A DNA stretch of 64,000 bases from Candidatus Diapherotrites archaeon (GTDB lineage: Archaea; Iainarchaeota; Iainarchaeia; Iainarchaeales; 1-14-0-10-31-34): the NCBI GenBank assembly GCA_040755695.1, contig JBFMAK010000001.1, positions 254,637 through 318,636 of the forward strand, given 5' to 3'. The notes under the pieces were generated by a model. It ran no database searches and was not told the DNA's origin. It saw only the letters and a program-made list of their open reading frames with translations. Shown here in pieces: positions 53,403 to 63,645 of this stretch (position 1 is the stretch's first letter; every line of letters starts with the position of its first letter). The position numbers were made by a program, and so were the translations under genes.

Positions 53403-54832
53403 TGGTATATATGAAGTTTTACGACCGCGAACAAGAATTAAGGGAAATGAAGCTGCTTAAAAAAAAGCAGCCTTCAATGTTAGTTATAACTGGGAGAAGG
53501 CGTGTCGGTAAAACAGAAATAATAAAAAGATTTTTAGCAAAAGAAAAAGGCATTTATTTTTTTGTAGATAACCAAAAATCAGAAAAAATGCTTTTAAGAG
53601 AATACAGCAAACAGCTTTTAGAATACTTTAATCTAAAAGAATACATTTCTATAGATTCATGGGAAAAGTTTTTGGAGCTTATTTTTGATTTAGCAAAAAA
53701 GAAAGACACAACAATCGCTTTTGACGAATTCCAAAGGTTTCTTCAAATAAATCCTTCTTTTATAAACCAGCTTCAAAAGTATTGGGATGTGCATAGAAAT
53801 AAAATAAAATTATTTTTGGTTTTGAGTGGTTCAAGTATTGGAATGATGAGAAAAATATTTATTGAGCAAAAAGCGCCTTTATTTAAGAGGGCTCAAAACA
53901 TATTGTTTGTTGAAATATTTGATTTCAAGACAATATACAGTATTCTAAATGATTTAGGGGTCACTAGTTTTAAAACAAAATTAGAGATTTATTCGTTTTT
54001 TGGGGGGGTCATATATTATTATACTTTATTAGATTATTATAATGTAAAAAACACTGATGATTTACTGGAAAAACTTATTTTAAGAAAAAATGCTCCACTA
54101 AAAAATGAGGTTAGAGATATTGTAATTGAATCTTTTGGAAAAGAGCATAAAACATATTATTCTATTTTGACCGCTGTAGCTTTAGGGAAAACAACAAAAA
54201 AAGAGATATGCGATTTTGTTGACGTAAAAGAAACTTCTTTGTCCCATTATCTTTACGACTTAATGAATATACTTAATGTAGTGAATTATGATGTGCCGGT
54301 AACGGAAGAAAAACCTTGGAGGTCAAAGAAAGGGCATTATTTCTTAAAAGACAATTTCTTTAAGTTCTGGTTTAAATTCATTTTCAGAAACATGAGCTAC
54401 TATGAAATAGGAAATTATGATTATATTCTTGAAAAAATAAAAATTGAATTGAATTCATTTGTAGGAAAAAATTTTGAGGAAGTATGTAAAGAGTTTTTGG
54501 TTGAATTGAACAAACAAAAGAAACTTCCTTTTGTATTTTCAAAGATAGGGAACTGGCTTGACAGAAAAGGCAATGAAATAGATTTGGTGGCGTTGAGTGA
54601 TAGGCATGAAATATTGTTTGCTGAATGCAAGTGGCAGGACAAGAAGGTTGGTTTAAAAGAATTGTTCAGATTAAAAGAAAAGGCAAAGCAGGTTCAATGG
54701 CACGGTAAGTATAGAAAAGAATATTTTGCATTGTTCAGTAAGGCGGGGTTCGAGAGAAACTGCTTGAGTTACTGTAAAAAAAATAAGGTAATGGCTTTTG
54801 ACCTTAAACACTTAAACAAGGTTTTCTCTTAA
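53402..54832 (+). CDS. archaeal ATPase with C-terminal DUF234 (PD-(D/E)xK-like) domain
   Basis: A 476-residue paralog of the ATPase at 19931. ATG 53402 (MVYMKFYDREQEL) is preferred; ATG 53411 is also possible. The longer frame from 53366 reads through the operator-like repeat and is unlikely. P-loop GRRRVGKTEII, Walker B-like TIAFDEFQRF, sensor VLSGSSIGMM, a winged helix around residues 245-300, and DUF234 with GNEIDLVALSDRHEILFAECKW, where the acidic and Lys residues match a restriction-type nuclease core. Codon use is more A+T-rich than the neighbouring core genes. The 3' end overlaps the convergent S26 peptidase gene by 4 nt. Confidence 0.85.
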   Translation: MVYMKFYDREQELREMKLLKKKQPSMLVITGRRRVGKTEIIKRFLAKEKGIYFFVDNQKSEKMLLREYSKQLLEYFNLKEYISIDSWEKFLELIFDLAKKKDTTIAFDEFQRFLQINPSFINQLQKYWDVHRNKIKLFLVLSGSSIGMMRKIFIEQKAPLFKRAQNILFVEIFDFKTIYSILNDLGVTSFKTKLEIYSFFGGVIYYYTLLDYYNVKNTDDLLEKLILRKNAPLKNEVRDIVIESFGKEHKTYYSILTAVALGKTTKKEICDFVDVKETSLSHYLYDLMNILNVVNYDVPVTEEKPWRSKKGHYFLKDNFFKFWFKFIFRNMSYYEIGNYDYILEKIKIELNSFVGKNFEEVCKEFLVELNKQKKLPFVFSKIGNWLDRKGNEIDLVALSDRHEILFAECKWQDKKVGLKELFRLKEKAKQVQWHGKYRKEYFALFSKAGFERNCLSYCKKNKVMAFDLKHLNKVFS

Positions 54833-55323
54833 TGTAGTGGTACTAAAAGAGCTGGGTTTGTTATTCTAATCAGCGCTGGCCTGAAAAGCCTCTGCCATAA
54901 GCCCTTTTTATCACAAAAAATTTTTTTTGTTGAAAGCCTCTTGTAAAAGAAAGTGAATAATGTTCCTTGAATTAAGGAAAATAGTGCAATCAATTTGTTC
55001 AATTGCTTTAAAGGAAATTCTTTCATTTTTCTTCCATTCAACTCGACAATTTTTCCCACAACCTTTTTCGCTTCAACTGGCCCGTCAAAGAACAAATGGT
55101 TGTCGCCTTTTGTAATAAGATAAAAATTGATGCCATTATTTCTTCTTCCCAGAAATCTGTGGGCAATAAGTTTTCCTCTTTGCCTGAAAACAATAATGTC
55201 ACCAAATTCTGGTTTACTTGAATTAAAATATATCTTTGTTGCAGTGAAGGTTTTTGCTGTTGGTGCCATGCTGTTCCCAGTTACAACAAAAGAATTCTTT
55301 CCAGAAAAATATTTTTCTTTCAT
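54829..55323 (-). CDS. S26-family signal peptidase-like protein
   Basis: A 164-residue protein. VTGNSMAPTAKTF (Ser nucleophile at about residue 18), GDIIVFRQRGKLIAHRFLGR and LITKGDNHLFFDGPV match S26/S24-type peptidases; His in place of Lys as the general base (AHRF) is the archaeal/ER style. A C-terminal hydrophobic segment may anchor it. It lies 4 nt after the lipoprotein gene and close to a RiPP-like locus, where small S26-type peptidases are often found as possible leader-removing enzymes. A housekeeping signal peptidase role cannot be excluded. Confidence 0.8.
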   Translation of the reverse strand: MKEKYFSGKNSFVVTGNSMAPTAKTFTATKIYFNSSKPEFGDIIVFRQRGKLIAHRFLGRRNNGINFYLITKGDNHLFFDGPVEAKKVVGKIVELNGRKMKEFPLKQLNKLIALFSLIQGTLFTFFYKRLSTKKIFCDKKGLWQRLFRPALIRITNPALLVPLH

Positions 55324-55327
55324 CTGA

Positions 55328-56338
55328 TCACTTGATTGACGGGATTTCAGAGTAATAATTTAAGTCAAATTCTTTTTTTTCTATACTCACTAAATTTAGA
55401 CTATATACCGGATCCCCTGTTTTTAAAACAATATAAGGTTCCTTTGAGCTGATTAAGATTTCACCTACACGAACATTTTCTTTGTAGATATCAACTTTAA
55501 GACATTTAATACCCTTATAATCACAATTATTGTCTTGAATTTCAATATAATTAAAACCGTAATAATTAGGAGAAGAAAAAGTCTTGCTTTCCAAGAAATT
55601 TTTTAAATTAAATTTGTCTTCAACCCTGTTTAAAACATAAAAATAGAAAGGCAACAAAAAATATGCTCTTTCATTTAAAAATGGATCAATGTTATAGTTT
55701 GTTTCTTTGCTATGCTTCATTTCTTTTGTAAGTATCCCGCGGCCATGAAAAGAGTTATCCTGCTTGTTTATTTCAAATGTATCAAGGGCAATTACAGTTT
55801 CAGTTTCTTCATCCTTGTCCGTCAGAAACCATTTCGGAAATTTTCCTACAATTATTCCATTCCACCAAGAATCATTTTCGTCAGTGATATAAATATTGTA
55901 ATAAACCTTTGCTTTCACCGGCTCATTCCAAAAAATTTCATAATTTAACATAACGCCTTTGCTGAAGTCTATTTTTCGCTCAAAAACAAATTGCTTGCTG
56001 GAATAGAAAGACTCCAAGGAATTTGACGGCGTTAACTTTATTGAAATTTTTCCGCTCGTTATATCGCATTTAAAGCTTATTGTATTCAAACCTTTATTCA
56101 AATCAAAATAATTAAAGCAAAGCAGGGAATCACTGGAATCGAAAATCTCAATTCTTGTTTTTTTTGCTTCACCATTGGAAAACAATGAAACAGCAAGTTC
56201 TAGAATTCCAAAACCTTGCTCAGCATTAACAGAAATCTCTTTTACTTCGAGAAAAATATTTTCTTTGGTCTTTGGCTTATCTTCTATGCAGCCTGCTAAA
56301 AAAAACAGCACTAAAACCAACAAAAAGTACTTTTTCAT
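55328..56338 (-). CDS. putative lipoprotein next to a RiPP-like locus
   Basis: A 336-residue protein. MKKYFLLVLVLFFLAGC is a signal peptide with a lipobox-type Cys at residue 17. The mature part is all-beta in appearance with no motif that I know (for example VKEISVNAEQGFGILELAVSLFSNG resembles a CARDB-like strand pattern). A TATA-like TTATTTAAATATAT at about 56363-56376 suits a short leader. It is divergent from the peptide gene at 56452 and 4 nt before the S26 peptidase gene. It might protect against or bind a secreted product, but this is inference. Confidence 0.65.
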   Translation of the reverse strand: MKKYFLLVLVLFFLAGCIEDKPKTKENIFLEVKEISVNAEQGFGILELAVSLFSNGEAKKTRIEIFDSSDSLLCFNYFDLNKGLNTISFKCDITSGKISIKLTPSNSLESFYSSKQFVFERKIDFSKGVMLNYEIFWNEPVKAKVYYNIYITDENDSWWNGIIVGKFPKWFLTDKDEETETVIALDTFEINKQDNSFHGRGILTKEMKHSKETNYNIDPFLNERAYFLLPFYFYVLNRVEDKFNLKNFLESKTFSSPNYYGFNYIEIQDNNCDYKGIKCLKVDIYKENVRVGEILISSKEPYIVLKTGDPVYSLNLVSIEKKEFDLNYYSEIPSIK

Positions 56339-56451: not shown

Positions 56452-56541
56452 ATGAAGAAAAAAAAGTATAAAAAGCCTTCAATAAAAAAATTAAGTATTA
56501 AGGCTGCTAGAGGGGCTACCGGAATTGCTACTAATGTATGA
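56452..56541 (+). CDS. 29-residue putative RiPP precursor peptide
   Basis: ATG 56452 to TGA 56541, not found by length-limited gene calling. The first half is Lys-rich and contains YKKPSI, a match to YxxPx[IL], the leader motif bound by PqqD-like B1 proteins in lasso-peptide systems. The second half reads KLSIKAARG then ATGIATNV, a small-residue segment suited to a core peptide. A TATA-like TTTTAAAAAA lies about 25-30 nt upstream. The gene is 21 nt before a radical SAM gene on the same strand, with pqqD, an HprK-like gene and a nucleotidyltransferase gene nearby. Confidence 0.65.
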   Translation: MKKKKYKKPSIKKLSIKAARGATGIATNV

Positions 56542-56562: not shown

Positions 56563-57522
56563 TTGAACTTGCCTTATAAAAACAAAATAACTTCTATTAG
56601 TATCCTATACACACACAAATGCCCTATTTATTGTGATCACTGTTGTGGTAATTTTTCTCCTAAAAGAAAAGAAAAATTGACCCCCAAAAAAGTCTTGGAT
56701 TATTTCAACGATATCTCTTCAATAAAAGTCAAAAAAATATGTTTCACCGGCGGGGAACCCTTCCTTTTTTTTGATGAATTAATTAATTTGATTTCAAAAG
56801 GAAAAAGAATGGGGTTTAAAATTTCAGTTATTTCAAACGGCTTTTGGGCAGTGAATGAAAAAGAAACAAGAAAGATAATGAGGCTTCTGTCAAAAAATGG
56901 TTTAGCTGCCATTAAAATCAGTGCCGATGAATTCCACCAAAAGTTTATTCCTATAGACAATATTTTGAACATTTTAAAAATAAGCAATAAGCAAATACCA
57001 TTAAAAACAATCATTTCGTTCACCAAAACTAAAGACCTAAACCACTTAAATTTACTACACTTTTTTAAAAAATTCAGGAAACTCCGCCTTCTTGTTCAGC
57101 CGGTTATCCCTGTTGGCAGGGCAAAAAACAAAATTAAAAAAGAAAAAGTGCTTTATAGAAAGATTGACCCCAAAGCAAAATGCCCTATGCCTGATCTTCC
57201 AACAATTGATGCTTATAAACAAGTTTATGTATGCTGTAATGGAATACTTGCAGGAAGAAATTCAATTTTTCATATAGGAGATACATCTAAAGAAGAACTA
57301 AAAGATATTCTCCTTAAATTCAAAGAAAACAGATTAATACATTTCTTAAAAACAGAAGGACCTTTTATACTTGTAAAAGAATTAGAAAAAAATAAATTAA
57401 GAAAAAGAAGGGAAATAAAGACAAAAAAATATGTGGGGGTATGCGATTACTGCATGAAACACCTTGCAACATACAGAAAAAACGACATAGAGAAGGCTTT
57501 GGAAAAAATCTACTTAAAATAA
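56563..57522 (+). CDS. radical SAM enzyme beside the precursor peptide
   Basis: A 319-residue radical SAM protein from TTG 56563. The cluster motif is CPIYCDHC (about residues 19-26), followed by FTGGEPF and VISNGFWA. The C-terminal region has further Cys residues (KCPMP, VYVCCNG and GVCDYCMKH, about 215-305), suggesting SPASM or twitch-type auxiliary Fe-S binding. Such enzymes often make cross-links or epimerise residues in RiPPs. It follows the 29-residue peptide gene by 21 nt and overlaps the 3' end of the convergent pqqD gene by 13 nt. Confidence 0.85.
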   Translation: MNLPYKNKITSISILYTHKCPIYCDHCCGNFSPKRKEKLTPKKVLDYFNDISSIKVKKICFTGGEPFLFFDELINLISKGKRMGFKISVISNGFWAVNEKETRKIMRLLSKNGLAAIKISADEFHQKFIPIDNILNILKISNKQIPLKTIISFTKTKDLNHLNLLHFFKKFRKLRLLVQPVIPVGRAKNKIKKEKVLYRKIDPKAKCPMPDLPTIDAYKQVYVCCNGILAGRNSIFHIGDTSKEELKDILLKFKENRLIHFLKTEGPFILVKELEKNKLRKRREIKTKKYVGVCDYCMKHLATYRKNDIEKALEKIYLK

Positions 57523-57782
57523 ATTAATTTTAGGTCTTTAAGTTTTTTAATGCAATCAAAAAGATCCTTCTTTGCTTGCCCATCTTTTAGCTTATATTTG
57601 TTTTTTGTAGCTTGCGAGATTTCTTTGAAAGAACTTTTTCCATTAATTTTTTTCCAGATAAACGATGCAGTAGAATTCAGCCTGAAAAAAAAATATTTTT
57701 CAGGTTCAAAGACTAATACCTCCCCTTCAATTTCTTTCCATTCAACATCTTTACATTTATATGCAATTTTTTTGGCATTCAT
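57510..57782 (-). CDS. PqqD-family peptide-binding (RRE) protein
   Basis: A 90-residue PqqD-like protein. VLVFEPEKYFFFRLNSTASFIWKKINGKSSFKEI (about residues 24-57) is the typical strand and winged-helix pattern in which N-x-T/S-A-x-x-I/V-W marks PqqD domains. These proteins present the leader peptide to RiPP enzymes. It is the last gene of a minus-strand operon that starts at 63645, 38 nt after the HprK-like gene. Confidence 0.85.
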   Translation of the reverse strand: MNAKKIAYKCKDVEWKEIEGEVLVFEPEKYFFFRLNSTASFIWKKINGKSSFKEISQATKNKYKLKDGQAKKDLFDCIKKLKDLKLIYFK

Positions 57783-57820: not shown

Positions 57821-58705
57821 TTATAACACTTTCCTTATTTTCACCCAAACCTTTTTCTCAGGCAAGAATTCAAGGTTGAAGCATTTGCTTCTTTTTACTA
57901 CGCCCATTGCAAAATCAAATGCCTGAAAAAAGGAAGGATCTTTTTTCATGTAAAGAAAATTTAAAGCAAAATTGCTATTAATTAATTTAAAGATTGAGTT
58001 AATAGGGTTTAATTTGTACAAAAAATTTTTCCTAGCTTTTTTGATAAAGAAAAGAGCTTTCAAAGGAAGCCCTTTTTTTGAACCTTTGAATTCACCAAAA
58101 AAAGGAAAAGAAAAAACAAAAATTTTTCTTCCCGCCACTTTTAACACATTCATATCATCACTAAATGTTCGATCTTCACTTAATAGTTTCATTATAGTGG
58201 TTTTTCCTTCTCCTGAAGGCCCTAAAAAAACCAATGCCTTGTTATTTTTGTTCACAGCTGAGGAGTGAAGCATTAAGGCTTTTTTCTTTAAAAAAAACAA
58301 CGAATAACAAATCATTAAACTTATTTTAAAGGCATTGATAAACTTGCTTTTATAATTAGGTAAATTCACCTCTATTGTTGCATAACTCCTCCTTAAGTTA
58401 ATTTTGCATTTCCATATCTTTGAAAAACCTTTTTTATTAAAAATAAAAACTCCTTTTTCTTTTGAATTCTTCATACTTACTGGGAGGGTTAATGGGGCCA
58501 CATTTTTTTTATTTAAAGTGATTTTTTTTTTGTTGCTTTTAACTAAAAAATTTATTGTAAACTCTTCTTTTTTATTTGAAATAAATTCGCTGTAATCTTT
58601 CTCTAGCAAATCAATTATTTCCATCCTATTAGAGGTTATTAATGTTGTTGTCCCAGCCAGACTTATTTTTGTCTTAAAATTTTCTTGAAAAAAATCATTT
58701 TCCAT
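57821..58705 (-). CDS. HprK-like P-loop protein
   Basis: A 294-residue protein from ATG 58705 (MENDFF), with AGGAG about 9 nt upstream; the longer frame overlaps the previous gene. ALMLHSSAVNKNNKALVFLGPSGEGKTTIMKLLSEDR (about residues 145-181) matches the HPr-kinase-type domain (H-x-S-x-V, then G-x-S-G-x-G-K-T/S). Homologs in lasso-peptide clusters phosphorylate the precursor; others have no proven role. It lies 4 nt after the B12-type radical SAM gene and 38 nt before pqqD. Confidence 0.82.
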   Translation of the reverse strand: MENDFFQENFKTKISLAGTTTLITSNRMEIIDLLEKDYSEFISNKKEEFTINFLVKSNKKKITLNKKNVAPLTLPVSMKNSKEKGVFIFNKKGFSKIWKCKINLRRSYATIEVNLPNYKSKFINAFKISLMICYSLFFLKKKALMLHSSAVNKNNKALVFLGPSGEGKTTIMKLLSEDRTFSDDMNVLKVAGRKIFVFSFPFFGEFKGSKKGLPLKALFFIKKARKNFLYKLNPINSIFKLINSNFALNFLYMKKDPSFFQAFDFAMGVVKRSKCFNLEFLPEKKVWVKIRKVL

Positions 58706-58709
58706 TAAT

Positions 58710-60089
58710 TCAACTCCTAATCTTTTTTTGTTCAAAATAATTCCGGGCAACACGCTTTAATAAATACATTTTTTCAGCAAAACCTTTGTGAGGGTAATAA
58801 TAAAATGAAGGGAATATTAAAGGAAACTTTTTTATTAATGATATTATTTCTTTCTTAGTTGAAGCAGATAAATTAAATATGACTTGGTTACTTATGTCAG
58901 AAACAATGCCTTCATCAAACTTTATTGAATGTCTGTATTTATGATAGAGGGCTGAATTTGCTAGAGGACTACATAAATGAAGCTGTGTTCTAATTCTTTT
59001 GCCATATAATCCGTTGTAGAGGGTTCTCAAAAACATCGTTTTCCTGAAATCAGCAATTGATTCAAAGGGGAAGCCCCAAACAAATGAGACCAAAGTATCA
59101 TCAAAATATTTCATTGATTTGTCAATCACTTTTTCAGCTAATTCAATGGTGAAAGGCTTATTGATGCGTTTAAGCACATTATTTGAAGCGGATTCTATGC
59201 CATAATAAATTCTTTTAAAATCACTTCCTGATAATTCTTCCATTAATCTTTTGTCCATGCAGTTCACTGACGCTGAACACCCAAAATTAGCATCTATTTT
59301 TTGTTTTCTTATTTCTCTGCATAAGGCAATAACCCTTTTCTTGTTCAGAGCGAAATTATCGTCAACCATCCTTATCAACTGCGGCTTATATTCTGAAACC
59401 ACAAAATTTATTTCATTAACTACCCTCTCGATGCTTCTAAATGTTACTTTATTATTACACTGTGGGTTTATGCCGCAAAAAACGCATTTAAATATGCATC
59501 CGCGTGAGCTTGAAATATGGAATGTATTATAATTACTTAAATCAATTGAATTATTTATTGGAGACGGAAATTCATCCAAATTTATTGTTCTTTCTCTTGT
59601 AAAATTTGAAATAACTCTGCCATTGCTTCCGTAAGTTATTCCTTTAACTTTTCTAAGAGAATTTTTTTGTTTTATGGCATTCATTAATTCAACTATTGTT
59701 TTTTCTCCTTCGCCTCTCACAATTACCCCAATTTGAGGAAAATTCCTCATTACCTCTTCCTCAATACCATTTATTGCTGGCCCCCCAACTATAATCGTTT
59801 TTTCAGGGAATTTTTCTTTTAATTTTTTTATTCCGATTAATGCAAAAGGCAAAAATTCAACAGAAAAACTTAACCCCACAATGTCTGCAGAATTTTTTAG
59901 AAACTTAACTAAATTTTGTGGGTCATACTGGTTTTTGTAGGAGTTAAATTGATAATCTTTAAAATCAACTGAAAAGCCGGCTTTTTCAAGACTGCTTATA
60001 ATATACAACACTCCAACAGGAGTGTAGGCAATCTTTTTTGAGTTCTCTAGATATTTAACCCTCAAATTTACAAGTGTTATGTCAGCCAT
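58710..60089 (-). CDS. B12-binding-domain radical SAM enzyme
   Basis: A 459-residue class B-type radical SAM protein. The N-terminal domain (about residues 15-145: TPVGVLYIISSLEKAGF, IVGLSFSVEF, IIVGGPAINGIEEE, IVRGEGE) has the B12-binding fold, without a clear DxHxxG motif. The radical SAM core starts at CIFKCVFC (about 200-207) and carries MVDDNFALNKKRV and YYGIESASNNVL. Family members methylate or otherwise change unactivated carbons. It lies between a nucleotidyltransferase and the HprK-like gene. ATG at 60089. Confidence 0.86.
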   Translation of the reverse strand: MADITLVNLRVKYLENSKKIAYTPVGVLYIISSLEKAGFSVDFKDYQFNSYKNQYDPQNLVKFLKNSADIVGLSFSVEFLPFALIGIKKLKEKFPEKTIIVGGPAINGIEEEVMRNFPQIGVIVRGEGEKTIVELMNAIKQKNSLRKVKGITYGSNGRVISNFTRERTINLDEFPSPINNSIDLSNYNTFHISSSRGCIFKCVFCGINPQCNNKVTFRSIERVVNEINFVVSEYKPQLIRMVDDNFALNKKRVIALCREIRKQKIDANFGCSASVNCMDKRLMEELSGSDFKRIYYGIESASNNVLKRINKPFTIELAEKVIDKSMKYFDDTLVSFVWGFPFESIADFRKTMFLRTLYNGLYGKRIRTQLHLCSPLANSALYHKYRHSIKFDEGIVSDISNQVIFNLSASTKKEIISLIKKFPLIFPSFYYYPHKGFAEKMYLLKRVARNYFEQKKIRS

Positions 60090-60118: not shown

Positions 60119-61183
60119 TTAATCAAGCAAAAAACCTTTAATGAATGGAATTAATTTTAATTTGTCTTTTAATCCTTTAGTCCAATAAAACCTAAAATAT
60201 AAGTACCTTAATCTAAATAAAACCTTATCTTTCCAAAAGTATTCGCTCTTGAGTATTCTGTTTTCATTAAAATTTTTTAAAAATAAGAGTGTTTCTTTTT
60301 TTGAATTTCTCTTTAACTTATTCATTGTTTTTTTTGGGATTTGCATTTCAAACAATTTTTGAGCTAAAAATAGTGAATGATAAAGTATTTCGCACACATT
60401 AAATTCAATTGCTCTCTCAACAAATTTATTCCAATCTATTTTAAATTTTTCAATTATTTTTTTCATTCTTAATAGATTTGGTATTGCCACTTGGAACGCA
60501 TGGGAGTAAATTAAATGTAAAGAAAAATAAATTAATTGGTCTTCAGGACAAAAGGTTCTCAGAAAATTGTTCCCTTTTATTGGCTTTGAGTCTTTCCGCA
60601 TCTTATTTATATCTAAATTAAAGGAATTTATGGGAAACAAGAGGTGCTGGTGCAACTCAAAATCTACAGTGAATGAACCAATTTCTTTTAAGAAAGGAGT
60701 GTGAATGCTATAACTCTTAAAAAATTTGTAAAAAATGGTTTCCTTCCCAACATAGTCCATTTTCTTTAATTCATATTCAATTAATGGAAAATCTTCTTTT
60801 CCCGCAAACAAATCAATGTCAGCTTCAGCCAGAAAATCATCTTCAAAAACTTCTTTTAATGCCCACCCCTTCAAAAGAATTACTTGAATTTTTTTCTCTT
60901 TTAATCTTTCAGCCAATTTTTTTAGCTCCCTTTTCAACAACATATTTTGGGATACAGAAAAAGAAAATAATTCTTCTAACTCTTTCATCTCTTTTCCTTT
61001 GTAACCCAATTTTTTCAAATTCAAGTAAATAGGATTAAAAACTAAATGATATTTGCTCATCCCAACAACTTCTTTCATGTTTATTCCCTGTTTAAGCAGG
61101 CTTTGAGCTTTAGCCAATCCTTTTTTTCCCAAAGGATAATCTGCACATAACAAAAGCAGTTTCTGTTCATTTGAAGGGCCCAT
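60119..61183 (-). CDS. nucleotidyltransferase (PF14907-like, RiPP/lasso-associated)
   Basis: A 354-residue protein. VILLKGWALKEVFEDDFLAEADIDLFAG (about residues 100-127) has the LKG-x-AL...DIDL pattern of the uncharacterised nucleotidyltransferase family often encoded beside lasso-peptide and HprK-like genes. The remaining part is helical (for example QLIYFSLHLIYSHAFQVAIPNLLRM). Known biochemistry of the family is sparse. It starts 3 nt after the methyltransferase gene and ends 29 nt before the B12-type radical SAM gene, in a continuous operon. Confidence 0.8.
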   Translation of the reverse strand: MGPSNEQKLLLLCADYPLGKKGLAKAQSLLKQGINMKEVVGMSKYHLVFNPIYLNLKKLGYKGKEMKELEELFSFSVSQNMLLKRELKKLAERLKEKKIQVILLKGWALKEVFEDDFLAEADIDLFAGKEDFPLIEYELKKMDYVGKETIFYKFFKSYSIHTPFLKEIGSFTVDFELHQHLLFPINSFNLDINKMRKDSKPIKGNNFLRTFCPEDQLIYFSLHLIYSHAFQVAIPNLLRMKKIIEKFKIDWNKFVERAIEFNVCEILYHSLFLAQKLFEMQIPKKTMNKLKRNSKKETLLFLKNFNENRILKSEYFWKDKVLFRLRYLYFRFYWTKGLKDKLKLIPFIKGFLLD

Positions 61184-61186
61184 TTC

Positions 61187-61921
61187 TTATTCCTCAATTT
61201 TTTTTGCCACGCAAAATAATGATAAACCTAAAGGCAATCTGATTTTCTTTGAAATCTTTGACTCAAAAGAAAGAATACTTAACAAAAGCCTGTTCACTGT
61301 TGGATGGAGCTTCATTAAATCGGACTCTCTGTCTTTAGAGAGGTTTTTGATCAACCTGAAGATTGTTATTAACGGAAAAAGCAAAGAATTCCAGTAAACT
61401 ATTTTTTCTATTGCAAAGCCTTCCTTAATAATTTTTTCTTTTAATTCCTTTTTTGTGTATCTGTGCCTTATGTGAACTGCTTTGTCGTGAGCACTGTAAA
61501 GTAAATTAAAGGCAGGTTCATTGATTATTATTATGCCCTTTTTTTTGAGCACTCTGTTGAATTCTTTTAATGCTTTTAAATCGCTTTCAACCCATTTATG
61601 ACATAAAACATCAAGTGAAAGAACAGCATCAAAAGAATTATTTTTGAAAGGAAGTTTCTCTATAGGGGCATTAACTAAATTCCTCAAGCCTCTTTTCCTG
61701 CAATATAAAAGGGCTCTCATTGAAAGGTCAAGACCCATTACTTTTACTGTCGCACTTAATTCTTTTGCCAGAATTCCTGTCCCGCAACCTGCATCTAAAA
61801 TCATTAAATTCTTTTTTCCAGAAAAATCTTTAATTCTTTCATGCACTAGTTTTCTGAGAAAAGAATTCCAGAAAAATTCTTCCTCCAATTCAAACAGTTT
61901 CTTGTATTCAAATTTTTCCAT
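61187..61921 (-). CDS. class I SAM-dependent methyltransferase (UbiE-like)
   Basis: A 244-residue methyltransferase. NLMILDAGCGTGILAKELS (about residues 37-55) is motif I. VMGLDLSMRALLYCRKRG and FDAVLSLDVLCHKW are motifs II and III/IV. Methyl-11 type, substrate unknown: lipid, sugar or peptide are all possible. It lies 3 nt after the glycosyltransferase gene and 3 nt before the nucleotidyltransferase gene. Confidence 0.88.
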   Translation of the reverse strand: MEKFEYKKLFELEEEFFWNSFLRKLVHERIKDFSGKKNLMILDAGCGTGILAKELSATVKVMGLDLSMRALLYCRKRGLRNLVNAPIEKLPFKNNSFDAVLSLDVLCHKWVESDLKALKEFNRVLKKKGIIIINEPAFNLLYSAHDKAVHIRHRYTKKELKEKIIKEGFAIEKIVYWNSLLFPLITIFRLIKNLSKDRESDLMKLHPTVNRLLLSILSFESKISKKIRLPLGLSLFCVAKKIEE

Positions 61922-61924
61922 TTA

Positions 61925-62644
61925 TTATTCCTTTCCAAATTTTTTCTTGAAACTAAAAATGTAAGGAACCATTTTAATTTCTCTCATTAAGCTAAAAGAG
62001 CTTTTTCTTTGCTCATGCCACACTACAGGCAATTCAATAATTTTCATTCCTTTCTTCTGTGCCCTAATCAAGAGTTCTGCGTCCCAGAACCAGCCTCTTG
62101 ATAGAGAGGCATCATAGCCTAATTCTTTCACTAATTCAATTAATTTTTTTCTTTTAAATGCCTTTATCCCGCAGTTATGGTCTCTTATTTTTGAATTGAA
62201 ATAAAACTGAATGAATTTGTTGTAAAGGAGGCTCATGAGGCGCCTGGAAATCCTCCTTTTTATTCTACTGCCTTTCACATACCTGCTTCCAAGGGCAATG
62301 TCTTCTCCTTTCCTTATTTCTTCAACCAGTTCAGGGATGGCACTCAAGCTTTGAATTGAATCAAGGTCCAGAAATACAACTATGTTGCCTTTTGCCTGCA
62401 GGAATGATTGCGCAAGATTTTCTCTTCTTGTGGGCCCTTTTTCAAATTCAATTAATTTAATTGCTTTTTTGTTTTTCGCGAATTCCTTTATTATTTTCCT
62501 TGAATTATCCTTTGAGTTATCATCAACTACAATCAATTCAAATGACCTAAAACCCTTATTCAGGAAATCATACATCTTGTGCAGGTTCTGCTTAACAGAA
62601 CTTTCTCCGTTGTACACAGGCACAAAAAAAGACACTTCAGCCAT
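61925..62644 (-). CDS. family 2 glycosyltransferase (dolichol-phosphate-sugar synthase-like)
   Basis: A 239-residue GT2 enzyme from ATG 62644 (MAEVSFFVPVYNG), 14 nt after the upstream stop with a TGAGGTTA ribosome-binding-like site; the longer frame overlaps the radical SAM gene. ELIVVDDNSKDNS is the DXD-preceding motif, VVFLDLDS the metal-binding DxD, and GYDASLSRGWFWDAELLIRAQ the acceptor-side region. Similar to dolichol-phosphate mannose/glucose synthases without a membrane tail. Encoded in the same operon as the RiPP-like genes. Confidence 0.88.
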   Translation of the reverse strand: MAEVSFFVPVYNGESSVKQNLHKMYDFLNKGFRSFELIVVDDNSKDNSRKIIKEFAKNKKAIKLIEFEKGPTRRENLAQSFLQAKGNIVVFLDLDSIQSLSAIPELVEEIRKGEDIALGSRYVKGSRIKRRISRRLMSLLYNKFIQFYFNSKIRDHNCGIKAFKRKKLIELVKELGYDASLSRGWFWDAELLIRAQKKGMKIIELPVVWHEQRKSSFSLMREIKMVPYIFSFKKKFGKE

Positions 62645-62658
62645 TTTTTTTCTTAACC

Positions 62659-63645
62659 TCAAAAATTCTTGCCAGCCAAATTCATTAAAGCTCCAAGATT
62701 CATTGAGCCAATGAAATTGTATTCCATGCAGTTTGCGCTTAGGCAGGAACCGCAATTTAAGCCAGATAACTTTTCAAATGCTTTTTCAAATCCATTTTCA
62801 AAAAAGTTTAGTGCATTAAATTTTTCCATTGAATTAAAGCACGGAAAAATGTCTTCGTTGGAGTCAATGTGACAGAACTGCCTTCCAGCAAGGCATTTTA
62901 TAGCCTTTGACGAATCAGGCCAGTACAGTAAATGCTTCAGGTACTGCATTGAATTTGCAACCTTTTTTCTTTCAATCTTTGCTTCAATCAATTTTTTTAC
63001 TACATTCTTGTATTCTTTTTCTGATGGTCGGATTTTTTCTGTTTTGCCTGAAAGCCTTGGGTTGTGGTGTAATGGCTGGAATGAAGCCCAGAAATTCAGT
63101 TCTTGGGCTTTTTCAAGAATGAAATCAATTTCATTCAAATTATATTTTGTGAGCGTTGTTACAGTCCATACCTTAATTCCGTTTTCCCTTGCTTTTTTTA
63201 TTGCACCCACCACTTTTTCATAGCATTTAATTCCTCTTTGCATGTCATGGATTTTCTTGCTTCCATCAAGACTCAATACAAGCAAATTCAAATTCTTCAA
63301 CTCATCAATTCTTTTCTCTGCAAGAATTCCATTTGACCCCAGAGTAGTGAAAATTCCTTTCTTGCGCGCAAAATCAATTATTTCTCCAATGTCTTTTCTC
63401 AGCAAGGGCTCGCCCCCAGTAAATCCAATCCTTTTTGTTCCTTTTTTTGAGAGGACTTCAATTACTTCAAGCACTTGCCCTGTACTCAAATCCTTGATTT
63501 TTCTTTCTGGAATATTGCAGTAAATGCATTTGGAATTGCACTTGTTTGTAATTGAAAAGCCTGCATTCAATGGAATTCTGGCCCCAAACAAATTGCATTT
63601 AATTATGCCGCCAAACAAACTTACGCCTTGAACAAACCCCATCAA
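62659..63645 (-). CDS. radical SAM/SPASM-like enzyme, first gene of the operon
   Basis: A 328-residue protein. The cluster motif is CNSKCIYC (about residues 36-43), followed by FTGGEPLLR and VLSLDG. The C-terminal part has auxiliary Cys residues: KCLAGRQFCHIDSNEDIFPCFN, then LNCGSCLSANC, a SPASM-like set. Such proteins modify peptides or, in archaea, act in lipid or cofactor pathways. It is the first gene of a seven-gene unit running to pqqD at 57510. An alternative Met start is at 63642. Confidence 0.87.
   Translation of the reverse strand: MMGFVQGVSLFGGIIKCNLFGARIPLNAGFSITNKCNSKCIYCNIPERKIKDLSTGQVLEVIEVLSKKGTKRIGFTGGEPLLRKDIGEIIDFARKKGIFTTLGSNGILAEKRIDELKNLNLLVLSLDGSKKIHDMQRGIKCYEKVVGAIKKARENGIKVWTVTTLTKYNLNEIDFILEKAQELNFWASFQPLHHNPRLSGKTEKIRPSEKEYKNVVKKLIEAKIERKKVANSMQYLKHLLYWPDSSKAIKCLAGRQFCHIDSNEDIFPCFNSMEKFNALNFFENGFEKAFEKLSGLNCGSCLSANCMEYNFIGSMNLGALMNLAGKNF

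Follow-up and report, generated by a model that had tools for sequence, protein, structure and literature searches.

Within a 64,000-nucleotide stretch of a Candidatus Diapherotrites genome (contig JBFMAK010000001.1, positions 254,637 to 318,636; hereafter the window) lies a short open reading frame (ORF) that a first-pass annotation had described as an overlooked gene for a 29-residue peptide with a lasso-type leader motif. The ORF (56452..56541, plus strand) begins with ATG, has no alternative start further upstream in its open frame and encodes MKKKKYKKPSIKKLSIKAARGATGIATNV. Its YKKPSI sequence fits YxxPx[IL], as had been proposed. We set the border between leader and core after a conserved IK, which would give a leader of approximately residues 1–17, MKKKKYKKPSIKKLSIK, and a core of approximately residues 18–29, AARGATGIATNV; the bias in residue type reported for the C-terminal half is evident here, with 10 of 12 core residues being Ala, Gly, Ser, Thr, Val or Ile. 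As also described, the stop codon is separated by 21 nt from the TTG start (56563) of a radical S-adenosylmethionine (rSAM) gene, and a lipoprotein gene (55328–56338) and an S26-type peptidase gene (54829–55323) run divergently from the peptide gene. The TATA-like box assigned to the peptide gene proved weak: the best candidate, at –38..–21, has one mismatch to TTTAWATA and was matched or beaten in 1696 of 20000 shuffles, and the perfect TTTAWATA match in the divergent region is placed for the lipoprotein gene and not for the peptide ORF.

The first-pass annotation had suggested aligning homologous loci for a conserved leader and a variable core, and had named a frame broken or absent in close relatives retaining the rSAM gene as evidence against a peptide gene. 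We compared the window with 87 genomes of the phylum, its own (G000) included. The rSAM protein had a match at E ≤ 1e-8 in 10 of these genomes, full length in three: the window's own, G003 (38%) and G004 (37%), the latter two belonging to the same family as the window's archaeon but to a different genus. All three carry, between the rSAM and lipoprotein genes, an ORF of 29–34 codons whose leader contains YxKPxI and whose variable tail is rich in Ala, Gly, Ser, Thr, Val and Ile. The peptides of G003 (MNYEKPKIKVLNIKIANAAASISTKIVASSSTST) and G004 (MEYKKPLIRKINIKSVGASLNFTVTQSAGIVQT) are encoded in the same spacer on the minus strand, and because the ORF is inverted in both relatives it must have moved as a unit. 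In the alignment the leader motifs read YKKPSI, YEKPKI and YKKPLI; Y, K, P, I and IK are invariant, and the tails vary in length and sequence. Thus, in these three sequences, the leader is kept and the core is variable wherever the rSAM gene is kept, and the frame is broken or absent in neither of the two relatives.

The cores of the three loci, AARGATGIATNV (window), IANAAASISTKIVASSSTST and SVGASLNFTVTQSAGIVQT, consist of Ala, Gly, Ser, Thr, Val or Ile at 10/12, 18/20 and 14/19 positions, respectively, and a composition check found no Cys, Asp, Glu, Trp, Tyr or His in any of them. The lack of these residues disfavors thioether, lactam and Trp/Tyr cross-link chemistries; of the known chemistries that remain, the simplest are epimerization and a kinase-type decoration of Ser/Thr residues. 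A profile built from the three peptides recovered them at E ≤ 1e-11, as expected by construction, and its best match elsewhere in the 87 genomes had an E-value of 0.0035; the weak matches fell in G035, G067 and G057, and inspection by eye of the surroundings of the first revealed neither an rSAM nor a PqqD gene. A single-sequence scan of genome contigs, a search of viral contigs and a DNA-level search of plasmids gave no match. None of the three peptides matched NCBIfam, a weak test given that the peptide of a Lachnospiraceae locus with a related enzyme (L018, below) is also unmatched there.

We asked how often such an ORF would be expected by chance, using both the motif of the first-pass annotation, YxxPx[IL], and the narrower YxKPxI, which was picked post hoc from the three peptides. 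Among the 702 ORFs of 20–80 codons in the window, two contain YxxPx[IL] and one contains YxKPxI. Following dinucleotide shuffling of the spacer between the lipoprotein and rSAM genes, with ORFs counted at 25–60 codons, a YxxPx[IL] ORF arose in 179 of 20000 shuffles for the window, 323 for G003 and 234 for G004; the corresponding counts for YxKPxI were 7, 14 and 6. Together with the ORF translation and the relatives, these counts make a strong sequence-based case that the 29-codon ORF is a real, conserved and overlooked precursor gene for a ribosomally synthesized and post-translationally modified peptide (RiPP).

Directly adjoining the rSAM gene is a gene, absent from the first-pass annotation, for a stand-alone PqqD family protein of 90 residues (57510..57782, minus strand; PF05402, 41.7 bits, cut-off 23.4), a candidate leader-binding protein of the RiPP recognition element (RRE) or B1 type. 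The leader motif thereby gains a candidate partner encoded next door. PMC10368454 describes B1 proteins of the PqqD type as recognizing three residues of the lasso leader (Tyr, Pro and Leu), and reports for the bsf lasso cluster that phosphorylation of the precursor by the kinase required the B1 protein. A PqqD match over the family cut-off occurred in five of the 87 genomes, and three of the five are the loci described here, where it adjoins the rSAM gene. The match in G019 lies among SPASM-type rSAM genes, its whole ORF scoring under the PqqD cut-off, and that in G050 makes up the start of an rSAM ORF; no small ORF was recognized as a precursor in either setting. The G019 locus (L034 5302-13529), in which several SPASM-type rSAM genes surround the PqqD-like ORF near tRNA synthetase genes, is a different rSAM cluster within the same order.

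The rSAM enzyme (56563..57522, plus strand; 319 residues) resembles YydG/EpeE, the epimerase of epipeptides. It matches the YydG/EpeE structures 8ai1–8ai6 over residues 11–298 (E 4.2e-26 for PDB 8ai1; profile E 8e-33) and the YydG family model TIGR04078 at 145.4 bits. The scores of the three enzymes were 145, 109 and 116 bits, and that of the Lachnospiraceae enzyme L018, which adjoins a protein matching the YydH/LiaK epipeptide protease family (80.4 bits, below its cut-off of 225), was 151 bits. Eight cysteines, forming a CxxxCxxC motif (C20/C24/C27), C207, a CC pair (224-225) and a CxxC motif (294/297), are invariant in the three enzymes and L018. Seven of these positions are Cys in all members of a 15-enzyme alignment, SPASM out-groups included. 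The eighth, Cys225, the second of the CC pair, is present in 11 of 12 YydG-like enzymes (the exception being L019) and in none of the three SPASM out-groups. Residue 225 aligns with residue 248 of the 8ai1 chain and, assuming a 25-residue offset in the crystal construct, would be the equivalent of EpeE Cys223, which has been proposed as the hydrogen donor and whose mutation is reported to lead to breakage of the peptide (PMC8326336). In a tree, the three enzymes form a supported branch (96/94) beside, and not inside, the Macrococcus/Lachnospiraceae YydG group; the deeper forks are without resolution. The homology thus spans the full length and the putative Cys223 equivalent is retained, yet 145 bits is far from the 300-bit cut-off of the YydG model; we regard the enzyme as a probable epimerase.

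The remaining genes of the cassette flank this core. The lipoprotein (55328..56338, minus strand; 336 residues) has an invariant lipobox, G16-C17, and is specific to the cassette, being full length in 3 of the 87 genomes only (E ≤ 1e-130), with the remaining matches partial at E ≥ 4.9e-6. Its structure model was poor (mean predicted local distance difference test score, pLDDT, of 56.3); immunity, binding or anchoring would each be a plausible role. The adjacent S26-type, signal-peptidase-like protease (54829..55323, minus strand; TIGR02228, 44.4 bits, cut-off 51.85) is a candidate leader peptidase, and the Ser of its GNSM and the His of its AHRF are conserved with G004. Masked bases interrupt both the S26 gene and the PqqD gene of G003, but the readable ends of the two match.

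On the other side, at 57821..58753 (minus strand), lies a gene for an HprK-related kinase-like protein (K-like; TIGR04352, 31.6 bits; TIGR04249 ScmC, 24.7 bits; both below cut-off), in which His149, the P-loop Lys170 and Asp186 are conserved (numbering of the 296-residue stretch 57824-58711); all three loci share the His, the Lys and the last Asp. Further along is a gene for an NTP_transf_5 protein of 354 residues (N-like; 60119..61183, minus strand; PF14907, 105.8 bits), also conserved in the relatives. Matches over 100 bits to this family were found in 4 of the 87 genomes, the three with the cassette and G005; the kinase-like protein was found in the same four genomes, with weak matches in two others. 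G005 belongs to the genus of G003 and G004, and peptide and rSAM matches are absent from it; on its contig C149 (14-1211), a fragment of the kinase-like gene lies at the contig end and adjoins NTP_transf_5. This locus is probably a fourth, truncated copy of the cassette, and a gap in the assembly may account for the missing peptide and rSAM genes. In the window, the kinase-like gene is separated from the NTP_transf_5 gene by a gene for a B12-binding rSAM protein (58710..60089, minus strand; NF050148 ApyD, 155.7 bits, cut-off 750), a possible accessory tailoring enzyme that is absent from the G003 and G004 loci. Cassette membership is uncertain for the three genes that follow on the minus strand, for a methyltransferase (61187-61921), a glycosyltransferase 2 (61925-62755) and a SPASM-type rSAM protein (62659-63645), none of which was found in the stretches of G003 and G004 that were read.

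We propose that the 29-residue peptide is a RiPP precursor whose leader is presented by PqqD, whose core is epimerized by the YydG-like enzyme, and which is tailored and cut by the other enzymes; we put the probability of this reading at roughly 68%. Once synthesized, the peptide would be bound at its YxKPxI leader by the stand-alone PqqD protein, as lasso B1 proteins bind theirs, and presented for modification. The YydG/EpeE-like enzyme would then take alpha-hydrogens from core residues (Val, Ile and perhaps Ala or Thr), and Cys225 would quench the resulting radical, turning L residues into D. The HprK-like and NTP_transf_5 proteins may phosphorylate or further decorate the Ser/Thr of the core. 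The leader would be removed by the S26 peptidase and the peptide would exit the cell, where the lipoprotein could bind, anchor or neutralize it. The product would probably be a secreted peptide that acts on other cells. Of this scheme, the conserved precursor, the fixed neighborhood, the family ties of PqqD and YydG and the conserved cysteines are present in the sequences; the reactions, their order and the biological role are our proposal.

Several observations weigh against the proposal. The conservation of the leader and the variability of the core come from three loci only, and all three rSAM enzymes score far below the TIGR04078 cut-off (300). There is no conservation of the residue taken as EpeE Asp210, which according to the alignments is changed in 8ai6. 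The kinase-like protein is weakly assigned: both of its family matches are below cut-off, its Asp-Asp in the window is Glu-Asp in both relatives, and its AlphaFold model failed (mean pLDDT 31.7). An M50 protease and ABC exporter of the epipeptide type, for which Macrococcus clusters served as the comparison, were not found among the neighbors of the three loci, those of the relatives being inspected partly by eye. Finally, EpeE is described as epimerizing epipeptides independently of the leader (PMC8326336), so that the need for a PqqD adaptor is not obvious.

The alternative that survives best, though we consider it unlikely, is that the peptide is a RiPP precursor and the YydG-like enzyme performs other chemistry, such as C–C bond formation, dehydrogenation or backbone excision, so that the product would not be a D-amino-acid peptide. 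The low family scores of the three enzymes and their separate branch (96/94) leave room for this, as do the very different neighbors of YydG-like enzymes in Halocatena, Klebsiella and Thermus. But the cysteine set, CC pair included, is retained, and the cores are without the residues that common rSAM cross-links require. Less probable still is a scheme in which the substrate of the enzymes is the lipoprotein or some other protein and the small ORF has a regulatory or leader function. The lipoprotein, full length in the same 3 of 87 genomes, is as specific to the cassette as the peptide, but YxKPxI is retained in both relatives despite inversion of the ORF, and we would not expect a regulatory ORF to switch strand and yet keep a motif read by PqqD-like proteins.

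The lasso-type label of the first-pass annotation held for the leader but not for the product class. A lasso peptide was rejected as the product class for want of a ring acceptor, a B2 protease and an in-cassette cyclase: none of the three cores contains an Asp or Glu, and no Transglut_core3 protein in the genome exceeded the family cut-off (best 13.9 bits, cut-off 26). A lasso-like or other macrolactam peptide whose cyclase is supplied from elsewhere in the genome would be in keeping with the lasso-like leader, the PqqD, kinase-like and NTP_transf_5 genes and the presence of one Asn_synthase-family protein. That protein, the only one in the genome, is encoded about 249 kb from the cassette, beside a gene for an ABC-type ATPase, and with the acceptor lacking in all three cores and no B2 protein over cut-off we regard such a product as very improbable. 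That the small ORF is a chance frame in an A-rich spacer is practically refuted: Lys-rich frames come readily from A-rich DNA, and YxxPx[IL] ORFs appear in about 0.9–1.6% of spacer shuffles, but the ORF is present in all three spacers with identity beyond the motif, and chance was rejected on the alignment and the shuffle counts.

The proposed cassette shares features with several known systems. Lasso clusters with a kinase or nucleotidyltransferase (paeninodin, pseudomycoidin and bsf) likewise combine a YxxPx[IL]-type leader with a stand-alone PqqD (B1), an HprK-like kinase and a nucleotidyltransferase. The predicted leader here fits their motif, with Ile replacing the Leu of YxxPxL-type leaders, but the cassette has no cyclase, B2 protease or ring acceptor in the core and has a YydG-like rSAM enzyme instead. 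Epipeptide systems (EpeX/YydF, EpeE/YydG, EpeP, EpeAB) are similar in having a short precursor beside a full-length YydG/EpeE-like enzyme with the same cysteine set, the equivalent of Cys223 included; they differ from the cassette in its PqqD, S26 peptidase, kinase-like and NTP_transf_5 proteins and its YxKPxI leader. No EpeX/YydF-like precursor was found, and the three peptides bear no resemblance by eye to the 49-residue peptide of L018. Because some defining features of each class were looked for and are missing, the predicted product is neither a lasso peptide nor a canonical epipeptide, but a cross between them. Compared with SynChlorMet systems (ScmC, the PqqD-related ScmD, and the rSAM enzymes ScmE/F), the PqqD protein of the window's cassette matches ScmD (26.7 bits) and its kinase-like protein matches ScmC (24.7 bits), both below cut-off, whereas the rSAM enzyme is YydG-like and not ScmE-like (145.4 versus 30.5 bits). 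Proteusins also undergo core epimerization by rSAM enzymes (of the PoyD type) with a critical cysteine, according to PMC8326336, but in the window's cassette the RRE-like protein is encoded on its own.

The occurrence of a RiPP in an archaeon would not in itself be new, because genome mining has reported RiPP clusters throughout the archaea, DPANN included, with rSAM types and lassopeptides among them (PMC12144867). The same survey counts as validated archaeal RiPPs before it only two lanthipeptides, both from Haloarchaea. Searches of open-license papers for Diapherotrites or DPANN RiPPs (the latter with radical SAM), PqqD with epimerases in archaea and DPANN bacteriocins listed no description of this gene combination or precursor family. 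Tentatively, and with less confidence than in the epimerization proposal itself, we suggest that a Diapherotrites (DPANN) lineage has joined a lasso-style leader, stand-alone PqqD, kinase and nucleotidyltransferase to an epipeptide-style epimerase, a dedicated lipoprotein and a leader protease of the signal-peptidase-like kind, yielding an epimerized peptide, perhaps also phosphorylated or glycosylated, with a host or rival cell as its target. If the cassette works as we propose, EpeE-type epimerization can be routed through a stand-alone PqqD adaptor, and an uncultured archaeon devotes part of its 1.3-Mb genome to a D-amino-acid peptide. The cassette offers a compact testable case, with a defined 29-residue substrate, a probable leader-binding protein and a probable epimerase.

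YydG-like rSAM genes also turned up on plasmids. On plasmid NZ_CP096021.1 of Halocatena salina (L038 5440-7047), the enzyme (24% identity, CC pair kept) is preceded by a hypothetical protein of 179 residues whose C-terminus is rich in Ala and Val; the two may be a further archaeal pair of precursor and epimerase. Plasmids of Klebsiella sp. (L040) and Thermus aquaticus (L045) carry YydG-like rSAM genes together with genes for an SdpI family protein and a methyltransferase, which suggests a shared, uncharacterized peptide-type system.
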